The notes beneath the pieces are model-generated. The model worked only from the letters and a program-made list of their open reading frames with translations, had not been told where the DNA came from and made no database searches. This document shows, piece by piece, positions 2,415 through 7,911 of a DNA stretch of 64,000 nt. Each line of letters opens with the position of its first letter. Within the stretch, counting starts at the first letter, position 1. Made by a program: the position numbers and the translations under genes. Origin of the DNA: Tychonema sp. LEGE 07203 (GTDB lineage: Bacteria > Cyanobacteriota > Cyanobacteriia > Cyanobacteriales > Microcoleaceae); contig NZ_JADEXD010000007.1 of the NCBI RefSeq assembly GCF_015207285.1, positions 1 to 64,000 on the forward strand. The letters are read 5' to 3'.

Positions 2415-4796
2415 ATGGAATTTTCTATCGCTGCACTGCTGGCAAATTTTACAGAAGACAAATTAGTGGCTCCCAAAGCACTGGAGAAAAAACTCGATTG
2501 CAACGACGCCACCAGTCAACTCAAACTTCAAATCGCATTAGAAGCTCTAGAGAAAATTGGCATATTAGTCAAAGACAAAGGGCGCTACCGCCGAATAGCT
2601 GAAGACGACGTAGTAGAAGCAAAACTGCGCTGTTCGAGCAAAGGATTTTGCTTTGCAATTCAAGATGCCGAAGGCTCAGAAGACGTTTACGTGCGAGAAA
2701 GTCACCTCTCAACAGCTTGGAACGGCGATCGAGTATTAGTCAAAATCATCAAAGAAGGCAGCCGCCGCCGATCGCCCGAAGGCGAAGTCATGCTGATCCT
2801 CGAACGCGCCAATCCCTCGGTACTGGCGCGAGTCAAGCAAACCGGCACCCCCACCGGCCGCGTCAGCTACAGAGCAATTCCCCTGGACGATCGGCTGCTG
2901 TTTGAACTAGACTTGCTCGCCAACGGCACAAACCTCCAAGAGGCGATCGACCATTTAGTACACGTCGAAGTCAAACGTTATCCCCTCGGCACCCATCGGC
3001 CAGTCGGCAAAGTAGTACAAGTCCTCGGTTCCGACGCCGAAGCAGCAGACGACCTCGACATCGTATGCTGCAAACACGACTTGCCGCGCTCCTTCGGGGC
3101 CGCCGTCATCAAAGCAGCCGAAAACTTGCCCAGCAAACTCAAAAAAACCGACATCAAAAAACGGTTAGATTTGCGGAACAGCCTGACAGTCACCTTTAGC
3201 AAAAACGAAGAAGGAGAAACCAACACCGAAAACGAAACCCCTCAAGTTCCAGAGGAAAATTTCTCCGAGGGAACAGCCGAAAACGAGATCGAAAACGAAT
3301 TCGACCCGACCTCATTTTTGTGCGATCCGCCCATAGAACGCGCACTGTCGATCGAAACCCTCAAGTCCGGCGGCTGGCAAGTAGCAATTCACATCGCCGA
3401 CGCAGCCGAGTACGTGCAGCCAGAAACCCCCCTAGACCGCGAAGCCCGCAAACGAGGCACTAGCGCCCATCTCGGAGAAAAAGTCATCCCCGTACAACCA
3501 CAAATCCTCAACGATCGCTGCTCGCTGCAACCAGACACCGAACGGCTGGCCTTCAGCATACTGCTGACCCTAGACGAATCGGGAGAACTCACAGAATACG
3601 AAATTCAAACCAGCGTCATTCACATTGACTACCAGCTCAGCTACGAACAAGCTCAAGCAATTATCGAATCAGACTCCGATGCCGAAGATAACCCTTTATC
3701 CTCCGCCCTCCGTCCTTTCCTAGATCAAATCTGGGCAGCCTCACGGGCTGCCAGACAAGCGAGACTCAAGCGGGGAGCATTTGAACTAAATTTGCCCGAC
3801 GCTAACTCTCACTTCGACGACGAAGGCGAATTAGGAGCTTTTGCAACGGCTCCCCCCGCCCAGTCGGCAGTCTCCGAGTTGGTCGTACTCGCCAACGAAG
3901 CTGTAGCCACGCACCTGCAAGCCTTGGGAGTTCCAGCCATCTACCGAGTCCAGCCGATGCCAGATCCTGCAGACATCCAGGAGTTCATCAAACTCTCCAA
4001 CAACCTCGGAGGCGAACTGTATCTCGAAAGCGAAGAAGAAGTTCTGCCCTTCGACTTCCAGCGATTTACCCAGCAGTTTGCCGGGCTCAAGTCCGAAAGA
4101 GTTCTCACCTACCTGCTGGAAGACACCATGAAGCCCGCAGTGTACAGCACAACTCCCAAGCCGCACTTCGGTTTAGCGCTGCAAGACGGTTACACGCGCT
4201 GCACCTCACCGCTTTCCCGCTACGCCGATTTATTGGTGCTGCGGGTGTTGCAAGCGGTGTTCGAGCAAGGGCGCAGCAGCCGCACAACTCGGGCCAAGGA
4301 AAAAGTCAACCTGCACCATTCCTCCTGTCACGGTCAAATTACTTGGAATGTCCTCCCCCCAGACTTGCACCACGAATTTGAGACAGAGTTTGCAGCAGCC
4401 GTGGTACACCTGACGGAACGCGAAAGGGTTGCGGAAGATGCCGAAAGCGATTTGCAGGGGTTGAAGAAAACCGGATTGATGAAAGAGCGCACCGGGCAAA
4501 CTTTCCAGGGTTTGATTACAGGGGTGCAGTCTTACGGTTTCTTTGTGGAAATTGAGGTGCGGCCGCCGGAGAGCGAACTGTTGCGAGTGGAAGGATTGGT
4601 GCACGTTTCTTCGCTGAAGGATGATTGGTATGAATATCGATCGCGCCAGCAAACTCTAGTCGGTCGCAAAAACCGCAATCAATACCGTTTGGGCGATCGG
4701 GTAGAAGTTCAAGTCAAAAGCGTAGATTATTACCGCCAACAAATTGATTTAGTTGCAGTCGGCGGCGGCAGCCAAGCTTTTGATGACGATGAATAG
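2415..4796 (+). CDS. RNase II/RNase R-family protein with altered active site
   Basis: The 793-residue protein has an N-terminal winged-helix/cold-shock-like region (about 1-200), an RNB domain (about 255-650) and a C-terminal S1 RNA-binding domain (about 695-785, motif GLITGVQSYGFFVEIE). RNB landmarks are clear: WQVAIHIADAAEYV, PLDREARKRGTSAHL, CSLQP, YTRCTSP. In active family members the aspartate cluster is of the type IDPPxAxDxDDALS. Here the equivalent reads CDPPIERALSIE near residue 304, so the DxDD part is missing, and an acidic insertion of about 50 residues precedes it. The later arginine of TSPIRKY/TSPIRRY is serine (TSPLSRY, near 597). By family knowledge these residues bind metal and cleave RNA 3' to 5'. 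I infer weak or no exonuclease activity, with RNA binding probably retained. The fold assignment is firm; the symbol rnr is not given because catalysis is doubtful. Confidence 0.9.
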   Translation: MEFSIAALLANFTEDKLVAPKALEKKLDCNDATSQLKLQIALEALEKIGILVKDKGRYRRIAEDDVVEAKLRCSSKGFCFAIQDAEGSEDVYVRESHLSTAWNGDRVLVKIIKEGSRRRSPEGEVMLILERANPSVLARVKQTGTPTGRVSYRAIPLDDRLLFELDLLANGTNLQEAIDHLVHVEVKRYPLGTHRPVGKVVQVLGSDAEAADDLDIVCCKHDLPRSFGAAVIKAAENLPSKLKKTDIKKRLDLRNSLTVTFSKNEEGETNTENETPQVPEENFSEGTAENEIENEFDPTSFLCDPPIERALSIETLKSGGWQVAIHIADAAEYVQPETPLDREARKRGTSAHLGEKVIPVQPQILNDRCSLQPDTERLAFSILLTLDESGELTEYEIQTSVIHIDYQLSYEQAQAIIESDSDAEDNPLSSALRPFLDQIWAASRAARQARLKRGAFELNLPDANSHFDDEGELGAFATAPPAQSAVSELVVLANEAVATHLQALGVPAIYRVQPMPDPADIQEFIKLSNNLGGELYLESEEEVLPFDFQRFTQQFAGLKSERVLTYLLEDTMKPAVYSTTPKPHFGLALQDGYTRCTSPLSRYADLLVLRVLQAVFEQGRSSRTTRAKEKVNLHHSSCHGQITWNVLPPDLHHEFETEFAAAVVHLTERERVAEDAESDLQGLKKTGLMKERTGQTFQGLITGVQSYGFFVEIEVRPPESELLRVEGLVHVSSLKDDWYEYRSRQQTLVGRKNRNQYRLGDRVEVQVKSVDYYRQQIDLVAVGGGSQAFDDDE

Positions 4797-4799
4797 TCT

Positions 4800-4839
4800 G
4801 TTGACAGTTGACAGTTGACAGTTGACAGTTGACAGTTGA
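4800..4839. repeat. Heptamer tandem repeat (TTGACAG)n
   Basis: Over five copies of TTGACAG follow directly after the stop of the RNase R-like gene. This is one of the short tandem repeat families found through the window. Confidence 0.95.
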
Positions 4840-5213
4840 TTTTCCTCAATACTTAGTTGTCATTGTCTAGCAACTAAGTATTGAGAGGTAGGCTGCCAAC
4901 TATACTCAGCAATCCTCAAAAAATAATTAATGACTAATATCCAATCCGATAGCATCGTCTGGCATCAAATCGAGTCAAAACTCAACAAGCACGGACGGTG
5001 CAACCGAAATCGCTCTAATTCATCTGCGTGAATCTGCGTTAATCTGCCCTCATCTGCGGTTAAAAAAAGAGAATTTTGCAACCGCAGATGACAAGGGATG
5101 GACGCTGATTCACGCAGAGGTCGAAAATAGAGATAGGAATAATTCCGATATTAACAGATTCGATCTAACAACTAATTACTAACAACAGTCAACCGTCAAC
5201 TCAAAAATAACTA
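4840..5213. other. Intergenic region with degenerate dispersed repeats
   Basis: It contains a degenerate copy of the TATCAAATCCGGT-type element end (4935-4957, with a partner GACGGTGCAACCG near 4994). It also contains an inverted pair built from CATCTGCG/CGCAGATG-type words (about 5025-5120; CATCTGCGGTT against AACCGCAGATG). A TAACAACTAATTACTAACAA stretch precedes ubiX. No gene was found. Confidence 0.5.
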
Positions 5214-5840
5214 ATGACGAATAACTACCCCCTAATTGTAGGAGTTACCGGTGCATCGGGACTGATTTACGCGGTGCGAACATTAAAATATCTCTTGGAA
5301 GCCGATCGCGCCGTGGAACTGGTAGCATCAAAATCTACCTACATGGTTTGGCAAAGCGAACAGAACATCCGAATGCCCGCAGAACCGACGCTGCAAGAAG
5401 AATTCTGGCGGGAAAAAGCAGGAGTACCCAATTCTGGCAAACTTCGCTGCCATCCGTGGCAAGATGTTGGTGCTAATATTGCTAGCGGCTCCTTTCGCAC
5501 CCAAGGAATGATGATTATTCCCTGTAGCATGAGTACACTAGGCAAGTTAGCAGCCGGATTGAGCTCGGATTTGCTCGAAAGAGCGGCCGACGTTCAGCTA
5601 AAGGAAGGGCGAAAATTGGTACTTGTACCTAGAGAAACTCCTTTTAGCTTGATTCACCTGCGAAATTTGACTACCTTAGCCGAAGCAGGGGCTAGAATTG
5701 TGCCAGCGATTCCCGCTTGGTATCACAATCCTCAAACTATTGAAGATTTGGTAGACTTTGTAGTGGCTCGCGCTTTAGATCAGTTAGGAATTGATTGCGT
5801 TCCTCTCAAACGCTGGAAGGAAGAAGAAGGGAGTCAGTAG
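5214..5840 (+). CDS. ubiX: Flavin prenyltransferase UbiX
   Basis: UbiX joins a dimethylallyl group to FMN to make prenylated FMN, the cofactor of UbiD-type decarboxylases. In cyanobacteria this supports plastoquinone head-group formation. The 208-residue length is typical. The FMN-binding start VGVTGASGLIYAVRTLKYLL, the central IPCSMSTLGKLAAGLSSDLL and LVPRETPFSLIHLRNL are classic family motifs, and PAWYHNPQTIEDLVDFVVAR closes the fold. The stop codon TAG lies inside the first copies of a TAGTCAG/TAGTCAT tandem repeat, so the repeat abuts the coding end. It is co-directional with the upstream RNase R-like gene and the downstream LapA-domain gene. Confidence 0.95.
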   Translation: MTNNYPLIVGVTGASGLIYAVRTLKYLLEADRAVELVASKSTYMVWQSEQNIRMPAEPTLQEEFWREKAGVPNSGKLRCHPWQDVGANIASGSFRTQGMMIIPCSMSTLGKLAAGLSSDLLERAADVQLKEGRKLVLVPRETPFSLIHLRNLTTLAEAGARIVPAIPAWYHNPQTIEDLVDFVVARALDQLGIDCVPLKRWKEEEGSQ

Positions 5841-6238
5841 TCAGTAGTCATTAGTCATTAGTCATTAGTCAACAGTTAGTTGTTAATTGTTAGTTGTTAA
5901 TTGTTAGTCGTTAGTCAACATCCAACAGTCGTTAGTTATTCCCCAATTCCCAATAACCAATTCCCAATAACCAATTCCCAATAACCAATTCCCAATAACC
6001 AATAACCAATTCCCAATTCCCAATAACCAATTCCCAATTCCCAATAACCAATTCCCAATTCCCAATAACCAATAACAACTAACCAACAACGAATAACCAA
6101 TAACCAATAACCAATTCCCAATAACCACTAACCAACAACCAATAACCAATAACCAACAACCAATAACCAATTCCCAATTCCCAACAACCAACAACCACTA
6201 ACCACTAAACAACAACCAATAACCAATAACCAATATTA
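5836..6238. repeat. Tandem repeat block (TAGTCAT, then CCAATAA/CCAATTCC)
   Basis: TAGTCAT and TTAGTTGTTAAT-type repeats occupy about 5836-5935. They are followed by about 300 bases of CCAATAA and CCAATTCCCAATAA units. Minus-strand frames through the block stay open only because the units contain no stop in that phase; they encode monotonous NWLLVIG peptides and are not genes. The whole ubiX-LapA spacer is repeat. Confidence 0.95.
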
Positions 6239-6243
6239 TTGAT

Positions 6244-7113
6244 ATGCGTCCTATATTATTGCTAGTAATTGTGCTTGGGCTGACTATTTTTGCCTTGCAA
6301 AATGTGGAGCCGGTTTTATCGCTGGTATTTCTGGGAATTCGATCGCCCGCATTGCCTTTATCTATCTGGATTTTGCTGAGCATGGCGGCGGGAGCAGTCA
6401 CGTCTTTATTGATTTCTGGTATGCTGGCTTTTTCAAATTACCTATCTCAAACGGGAAACCCCACCGGCCGCGACAGTCGCAACCGCGATGCTGTTTCACC
6501 AGACAGGAGAACGGCTTACGCGCCGCCTCCCCCTCCTAGAAAACAAGAGATTGACCCGGATTTCGATCGGGAAAATAGCCAAACTTCCTATCAAACTGAA
6601 TACGGGACACCGGCGGGTTACAGCGCCCGGACTTTTCAGCAAGAAACTCCGAACCCAGTTGGGGCGAAGAATTACGCTCAACCGGAGACTTATCCGGCGA
6701 CAGAGGATGAGGATGATTGGGTTTCTGATGGCTCTAAATCCGGCTCTGGCGGCGGCGATGATGATTGGGGGGACGATCGCGATTTTGCCGATCGACCGCA
6801 GGTAAATGACGTTGCAGCGGCAAATCCGAGGGATTACGAAACGAAACAGGAACCGAAAAGCAAGTCTTGGGCCGGCTCGGTGTACTCTTACGGCTATCGA
6901 GATCCGAACCAGTCGGGGGTGGGACAAACTGAGTCTGTCTACGATGCAGAGTATCGGGTGGTTGTTCCCCCGCCAGGGGCGATACCTCAACCGGTTGATT
7001 CGGAAGCATCAAAAAATCTTAGTCCAGAAGCAGAGGAGGATTGGGGATTGGATGAAAATGATGTATTTGAGGATGACGATCGCCCCAGCGGGCCGATCGA
7101 CTTGAAAAAATAG
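6244..7113 (+). CDS. LapA-domain (DUF1049) membrane protein with acidic tail
   Basis: Residues 1-67 form two hydrophobic helices (about 3-27 and 37-62) in the LapA/DUF1049 arrangement: ILLLVIVLGLTIFALQNVEP, then a short hydrophilic turn and SIWILLSMAAGAVTSLL. The remaining 220 residues are disordered, rich in Asp, Gly, Pro and Ser, with DDDW-like acidic clusters, and are probably cytoplasmic. In E. coli the LapA/LapB pair is linked to envelope biogenesis, but cyanobacterial LapA-domain proteins are mostly uncharacterised. The gene is 22 bases upstream of the preferred aroK start, which suggests co-transcription. The ATG follows the repeat block almost directly, so its promoter is either inside the repeats or further upstream. 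Confidence 0.85.
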   Translation: MRPILLLVIVLGLTIFALQNVEPVLSLVFLGIRSPALPLSIWILLSMAAGAVTSLLISGMLAFSNYLSQTGNPTGRDSRNRDAVSPDRRTAYAPPPPPRKQEIDPDFDRENSQTSYQTEYGTPAGYSARTFQQETPNPVGAKNYAQPETYPATEDEDDWVSDGSKSGSGGGDDDWGDDRDFADRPQVNDVAAANPRDYETKQEPKSKSWAGSVYSYGYRDPNQSGVGQTESVYDAEYRVVVPPPGAIPQPVDSEASKNLSPEAEEDWGLDENDVFEDDDRPSGPIDLKK

Positions 7114-7135
7114 CAAAATATCGGAGGATTTGGCG

Positions 7136-7687
7136 GTGGATTTGTTGAGGGGAGTTAATATCTATCTCGTCGGAATGATGGGTGCGGGAAAAACGACGGT
7201 GGGGCGGATTTTGGCAAGGGAATTAAAATACCGTTTTTTTGATACTGATGAATTAATTGTGCGAGTTGCTAATCAGTCAATTGCTGAGATTTTCGATCGC
7301 GAAGGGGAAGAGGCTTTTCGGGAATTAGAAACTAAGGTACTCAACGAATTGTCTGCTTATCAAAATTCGGTGGTTGCTACGGGCGGCGGTATTGTCGCCC
7401 GATCGACAAATTGGGGTTACTTACATTACGGTATCGTGGTTTGGCTGGATGTGCCTGTAGACCAATTGTACGATCGACTGCGATCGGACAGCACTAGACC
7501 CCTACTGCGGGAGGGCGATCTCAAATCTAAGCTGCAAAGCCTTTTCAACGAACGAAAGCGTTTTTACGCTCGAGCAGATGTCCGAGTTTGTACCAGCGGA
7601 GGCGAAAGGCCTCAAGAAGTGGCGCGTCGGGCGATCGAAGAAATCAAAAAAATTATTAAATCCGAAACCAGCCCCGATCTCAATTAA
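7136..7687 (+). CDS. aroK: Shikimate kinase
   Basis: AroK phosphorylates shikimate at the 3-hydroxyl using ATP in aromatic amino-acid synthesis. The Walker A loop GMMGAGKTTVG, shikimate-binding FFDTDELI, REGEEAFRELE, the ATGGG motif in SVVATGGGIV, and the lid R in STRPLL are all present. A TTG at 7130 extends the frame, but the ribosome-binding site GGAGG at 7123-7127 would be only two bases from it. GTG at 7136 is eight bases away, so I choose GTG and a protein of 183 residues. It is likely in an operon with the LapA-domain gene. Confidence 0.93.
   Translation: MDLLRGVNIYLVGMMGAGKTTVGRILARELKYRFFDTDELIVRVANQSIAEIFDREGEEAFRELETKVLNELSAYQNSVVATGGGIVARSTNWGYLHYGIVVWLDVPVDQLYDRLRSDSTRPLLREGDLKSKLQSLFNERKRFYARADVRVCTSGGERPQEVARRAIEEIKKIIKSETSPDLN

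Positions 7688-7911
<224 letters not shown>

Follow-up and report, generated by a model that had tools for sequence, protein, structure and literature searches.

The zam Locus

The window, by which we mean the whole 64,000-nucleotide stretch of Tychonema sp. LEGE 07203 DNA analyzed here, carries an RNB-family gene with an ATG start and an uninterrupted reading frame for 793 amino acids, followed on the same strand by genes for a flavin prenyltransferase, a LapA-domain-like membrane protein, and shikimate kinase (Table 1). Pfam recognizes an RNB domain (E 5.9e-79) together with OB_RNB, CSD2, and S1 in the encoded protein (hereafter the window protein), and the AlphaFold2 model and structure matches likewise show the RNB fold with CSD1, CSD2, and S1 all present. 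The preliminary description of this DNA had read the protein as full length and uninterrupted, with RNB fold and S1 domain kept, and it was right on these points.

Table 1. Features of zam and the genes that follow it in the window
Feature	Position	Strand	Description	Basis
zam	2415..4796	+	very probable RNB-family pseudonuclease, Zam ortholog, 793 aa	C73/C79, tree position among Zams
N-terminal helical/winged-helix-like region, residues 1-64	2415..2606	+		AlphaFold2: H5-9, H20-26, H32-48, E51-54, E57-60
CSD1, residues 65-133	2607..2813	+		Pfam OB_RNB 70-127
Redox cysteines C73, C79 in RCSSKGFC	2631-2633, 2649-2651	+	within CSD1	
CSD2, residues 134-262, ending in TFS 260-262	2814..3200	+		Pfam CSD2 178-227, alignment
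Acidic insertion with CDPP, residues 263-307	3201..3335	+	predicted largely disordered, lineage-specific	pLDDT, alignment, dN/dS
RNB domain, residues 307-616, with E308/R309, H352, S601	3333..4262	+		Pfam RNB, alignment
S1 domain, residues 691-780, near-invariant GLVHVSSLKDDWYEY...LVGRK	4485..4754	+		Pfam S1 692-779, invariant columns
ubiX	5214..5840	+	UbiX family flavin prenyltransferase	NCBIfam TIGR00421/NF004685 above cutoff
LapA-domain-like membrane protein	6244..7113	+		Pfam LapA_dom, weak, below cutoff
aroK	7130..7687	+	shikimate kinase	Pfam SKI

Short tandem repeats of 7 bp (GTTGACA, AGTCATT, GTTAGTT, CCAATAA, TCAACTC) fill the intergenic stretches flanking zam, ubiX, and the LapA-like gene, forming arrays at 4800-4839, 5832-5915, 5950-6235, and 7795-7877; translation of the one at 5950-6235 gives a spurious ORF built of NWLLGIG-type repeats. 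In the zam-ubiX spacer (5023-5118) lies an imperfect inverted repeat of 45 nt that encloses a 6-nt loop. At 128-396, beside a slr1353-family gene, a 90-bp unit stands three times in tandem, almost unchanged (96% matches), and yields a 90-aa repeat ORF. A promoter/terminator scan around zam returned nothing above chance.

Identity of the Gene and Its Known Family

We identify the gene as zam, which cyanobacteria carry as their second chromosomal RNB-family gene, on the basis of its profile match, its place in the tree, the cysteine pair C73/C79, and the zam-ubiX-lapA-like-aroK block that the window has in common with distant cyanobacteria. In a quick tree in which E. coli RNase R and RNase II form long branches, the window protein falls on the Zam side of the branch that separates Zam from Rnb and RNase II/R (SH-aLRT 100); C73 and C79 are numbered exactly as in Zam of PCC 7002 and PCC 6803, and the score against the TIGR02063 RNase_R equivalog (466.2 bits) lies below the curated cutoff of 597.85 bits. 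A paralog in the same genome, Rnb (L002), keeps an intact TIDDESTTEIDDG motif and, going by that motif, is presumably the active nuclease of this genome.

Because Thomas et al. described Zam in 2022, our protein belongs to a known family whose active-site degeneracy is already on record (PMC9145284). That study set Zam apart as an RNB clade of cyanobacteria in which the site is degenerate and redox cysteines are essential, and classed it as a nonfunctional nuclease with a redox-regulated function. For Zam of PCC 7002 and PCC 6803, a cysteine requirement, a redox mobility shift, and deletion phenotypes were reported, the last affecting the synthesis of phycocyanin and the ratio of the photosystems; the redox-dependent function in photosynthesis and the acetazolamide phenotype are documented in these two species only. 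Purified PCC 7002 Zam, a protein that aggregates, had no nuclease activity and did not bind RNA, and the Lys/Arg and Phe contacts of the L12 loop are conserved in Zam CSD1 (PMC9145284).

The window protein resembles Zam of Synechocystis PCC 6803 (Sll1910) and Synechococcus PCC 7002 (A1543) in its domain order, its degenerate RNB site, its CSD1 cysteines C73/C79, and its membership in a near-universal cyanobacterial ortholog group; it differs from them in the 45-aa acidic insertion between CSD2 and RNB that marks its clade and in the residues SPER at the four catalytic positions. What is new here is that none of 97 Zams has the full Asp quartet, that a clade keeping the last two of these acids also keeps R500 and Y253, and that ubiX lies downstream of zam.

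A Degenerate Active Site

We aligned 97 Zams (the window protein and 96 others) with 25 active-type RNB proteins (E. coli RNase R and RNase II and 23 others) by MAFFT L-INS-i, using RNase R numbering for the catalytic acids, such that D272/D278/D280/D281 correspond to RNase II D201/D207/D209/D210. Positions 272, 280, and 281 are D in each of the 25 active-type sequences, position 278 is D or E, and the catalytic Arg and Tyr are present in all. In the window protein, S262, P306, E308, and R309 stand in place of the four acids, S601 in place of RNase II R500, and H352 in place of Y253. The loss of DxDD and the change of the first Arg of TSPIRKY to Ser (TSPLSRY, residues 597-603), both claimed in the preliminary description, are thus confirmed in an alignment that includes E. 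coli RNase R/II and cyanobacterial RNB proteins. The same description had set CDPPIERALSIE in the place of the expected IDPPxAxDxDDALS; the location (residues 303-314) stands, and the register does not, since CDPP is not the homolog of IDPP. The homologous strand instead ends in TVTFS (258-262), with TFS (260-262) as the counterpart of TID, and we rejected CDPP as the start of a canonical motif on this ground. CDPP closes an acidic insertion of about 45 aa, found in such form only in the window's own clade, within which CDPP, SDPP, and WDPP alternate.

Could the insertion itself supply the missing ligands, which the preliminary description had named as the case that would overturn its reading (acids at about residues 262-300 filling the metal site)? 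Residues 269-294 are predicted to be disordered (pLDDT < 50), the insertion is clade-specific and weakly constrained, and D304 is not conserved beyond the clade, all of which makes substitute ligands from this segment unlikely. A sequencing error or frameshift was also considered and rejected because closely related Microcoleus/Tychonema genomes carry the same degenerate motif. In RNase II, D209N alone abolishes activity and leaves RNA binding intact (PMC3293843). With the Asp quartet and the catalytic Arg both lost, and likewise the Tyr that sets the product, the window protein is very probably unable to hydrolyze RNA.

Distribution and Decay of the Site Across Zams

A profile built from 70 Zams and run on 390 sampled Cyanobacteriia genomes matches 389 of them, a handful weakly and probably via Rnb; beyond Cyanobacteriia, a search with the window protein gave weak RNB matches only. 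Among the weak matches, G344 (one contig of 4.19 Mb), G352, and G321 each have one RNB gene, of the Rnb type, and hence apparently no Zam. Two further low scorers, G292 and G474, are fragmented assemblies with one RNB protein each, and the divergent Zams of the f46 genomes still carry RC[ST]SKG[FY]C and LKDDWYxY/F. A Gloeobacter-like genome encodes a third RNB protein (L200, G336:C77) with intact DxDD and TSPLRR, distinct from both Rnb and Zam.

The full four-acid quartet occurs in 0/97 nonredundant Zams, a count that takes in picocyanobacterial rows (f25) whose RNB region is highly divergent and uncertainly aligned; the commonest quartets are KSDD (14) and DADD (12). D280 and D281 are kept together in 33 of the 97, and these proteins have Arg500 (32/33), Tyr253 (32/33), and in part D272 (15/33), but never an acid at 278 (0/33), whereas the remaining 64 have Arg500 in 14 cases and Tyr253 in 24. 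Among the 87 non-picocyanobacterial Zams, position 278 is acidic in 8, never alongside D280/D281, and the D280 position (RNase II D209) holds an acid in 76, as it does, with E308, in the window protein. Proteins in the DD state group together on the tree, with two changes, so the retentions are not independent events, and an independent-pairs test for joint loss of DD and Arg/Tyr had too few contrasts. Since regain of the full motif is unlikely, we infer an early loss of the acid at 278 followed by parallel losses elsewhere. One genome whose Zam keeps D272, D280, and D281 (L103) has an Rnb gene that reads in two frames in its assembly (L182, G209:C84, ~1490-1510).

C73 is found in 96/97 Zams and C79 in 94/97. 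With one Zam lacking C73, three lacking C79, and another (L198, G330:C228; RIRYSRGSYW) lacking both, the redox switch cannot be strictly universal, and L198 offers a natural test of the redox-switch model.

Selection and Conservation

The window gene was compared with its counterparts in four same-genus genomes, and Rnb was compared in the same genome pairs. Whole-gene dN/dS of zam is 0.09-0.17, with residues 1-262 at 0.05-0.07, the C-terminal/S1 part (617-793) at 0.01-0.06, the RNB domain at 0.13-0.27, and the acidic insertion at 0.23-0.74 (0.15-0.74 over all our estimates), a contrast between parts that is consistent in all pairs. The corresponding values for Rnb (N-terminal 0.14-0.23, RNB 0.08-0.30, C-terminal 0.07-0.11) amount to a tendency only, because in the pair with G197, it is the RNB domain that has the largest value. 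The gene is under purifying selection and the protein is maintained; these values reject a recent pseudogene. Across the 97 Zams, columns at least 90% conserved make up 55% of CSD1, 51% of S1, and 8% of RNB, and Rnb shows the reverse, with the RNB domain as its conserved part (27% versus 1% and 11%). From such patterns, the selected surfaces of Zam appear to be the OB domains. The proposal that this is a maintained pseudoenzyme, perhaps an RNA-binding regulator, fits a Zam ortholog that is under purifying selection and present nearly throughout Cyanobacteriia.

Gene Neighborhood

Of the 130 zam loci with sufficient flank, 95 have ubiX downstream and on the same strand, picocyanobacteria included; the median distance is 214 bp (BLAST ends), and ubiX is never on the opposite strand. 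In the 49 loci with full 5-kb flanks, the downstream same-strand neighbors are ubiX (40), the LapA-like gene (41), and aroK (22), and a slr1353-family gene lies divergently upstream in 31. In Nostoc PCC 7120, alr1240-alr1241-alr1242 form one transcription unit (PMC10287535), an order that matches zam-ubiX-lapA-like in the Nostocaceae-like genome G040. The Zam paper makes no mention of ubiX or an operon (PMC9145284), and no earlier zam-ubiX link was apparent in a literature search judged mostly by title.

Related Folds

The AlphaFold2 model, made with 70 sequences (pLDDT 88.4, pTM 0.85), finds its best structural matches in RNase R (8cdu, 5xgu, 7dcy), the S1 domain alone being a common fold that was given no weight. 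RNase R (E. coli Rnr, B. subtilis RnR; 5xgu, 8cdu) is the closest solved fold and shares the N-terminal helical domain and the CSD1-CSD2-RNB-S1 order; unlike RNase R, the window protein lacks the Asp quartet, the Arg, and the Tyr and falls short of the equivalog cutoff. Yeast Ssd1 (7am1) was matched as well (Z 35.2, rmsd 4.4, 614 residues aligned) and is, by analogy, the closest functional parallel to Zam that we can draw, with its nuclease fold without an active site and its conserved cold-shock domains. The likeness is convergent, because Ssd1, unlike Zam, descends from Dis3L2 in fungi. To our knowledge, Ssd1 has no redox cysteines and no link to RNase E. In its lineage, catalysis was lost repeatedly and the cold-shock domains were conserved (PMC8097288); RNA is bound on the outer face of these domains (PMC8934651).

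Alr1240 and the Question of Activity

One report sits uneasily with a dead nuclease. Zhou et al. 2020, as cited in PMC10989914 and PMC10783494, reported exoribonuclease activity for Alr1240 of Anabaena PCC 7120. The first of these, a review, presents Alr1240 as an active RNase II that degrades unstructured RNA and that also binds RNase E, at its catalytic domain, and stimulates it. Alr1240 was identified as Zam by Thomas et al. (PMC9145284), and synteny with G040 agrees: it is a Zam ortholog. Yet Zams of its presumed family, the Nostocaceae-like f6, have no quartet and mostly read ENAL or ENAF at the DDAL position. The conflict therefore remains, and either the activity of recombinant Alr1240 came from elsewhere or the Zam site is noncanonical.

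Proposed Mechanism and Alternatives

In total, we favor a reading, to which we give a probability of roughly 0.7, in which Zam is an inactive nuclease maintained as an adaptor with a redox switch, one that would bind RNA and/or RNase E, the binding being the step that we supply by inference. In this model, an RNase R-like fold is retained, the RNB domain would serve as a scaffold for three OB-type domains (CSD1, CSD2, and S1), and these domains would carry the selected function. The redox pair C73/C79 sits in the CSD1 loop that contacts RNA in RNase II, and we posit that binding of RNA or RNase E is what the switch controls and that the properties described for PCC 7002, PCC 6803, and Anabaena would apply to the window ortholog. 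Counting against the model are the activity reported for Alr1240, the acid that most Zams retain where RNase II has D209, the lack of RNA binding by purified (and aggregating) PCC 7002 Zam, and a cysteine pair that is not strictly universal.

It is improbable, in our judgment, that Zam is still a nuclease, i.e., a weak single-strand-specific exonuclease in which E308, perhaps D304, or a rearranged site holds the metal. The identification of Alr1240 as Zam, its reported RNase II-like degradation of unstructured RNA (PMC10989914), and the prevalence of an acid at D280 would all fit such an enzyme. However, an acid at 278 is rare and never accompanies D280/D281, the window protein has S, R, and S where D272, D281, and R500 would be, D304 is not conserved beyond its clade, and no other folded part is under less constraint than the RNB domain. 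Purified PCC 7002 Zam was inactive, though aggregating (PMC9145284), and for a recombinant preparation, carryover of E. coli RNase II/R would be a simple alternative source of activity. A gene decaying without function on its way to loss is scarcely credible: the active site and parts of RNB do diverge fast, and G344, G352, and G321 carry Rnb alone, but the pattern of selection refutes this reading, with the whole gene under purifying selection and CSD1 and S1 some of its best-conserved stretches, and the near-universal profile matches and the deletion phenotypes in two species (PMC9145284) stand against it as well.

An Ssd1-like role, in which Zam would be an RNA-binding translational regulator working through the outer CSD face, independently of RNase E and gated by redox, is a more serious contender, albeit still an unlikely one. 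The architecture is of the same kind, with cold-shock domains conserved and catalysis lost (PMC8097288, PMC8934651), Ssd1 is among the structural matches, and the L12-loop contacts are kept in Zam CSD1 (PMC9145284); on the other side, the only biochemical partner reported for Zam is RNase E rather than any RNA.

Returning to the redox-switched adaptor, we tentatively extend it to an evolutionary scenario that we hold to be possible, if doubtful. The Zam ancestor may have had two functions, as a nuclease and as an adaptor for RNA/RNase E gated by redox; loss of the acid at 278 would have come in or near this ancestor, and the rest of the site would have decayed separately in many cyanobacterial lineages, much as fungal Ssd1/Dis3L2 proteins underwent parallel, separate decay. 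A leptolyngbyoid-type clade with D280, D281, Arg500, and Tyr253 (and D272 in about half) may still bind metal or RNA 3' ends to some degree, and the zam-ubiX pair, ancient in this view, would tie the Zam regulator to flavin-prenyl/quinone metabolism.

Thus, what looks at first like a striking catalytic loss in one Tychonema protein is a conserved, previously described trait of a near-universal cyanobacterial protein.
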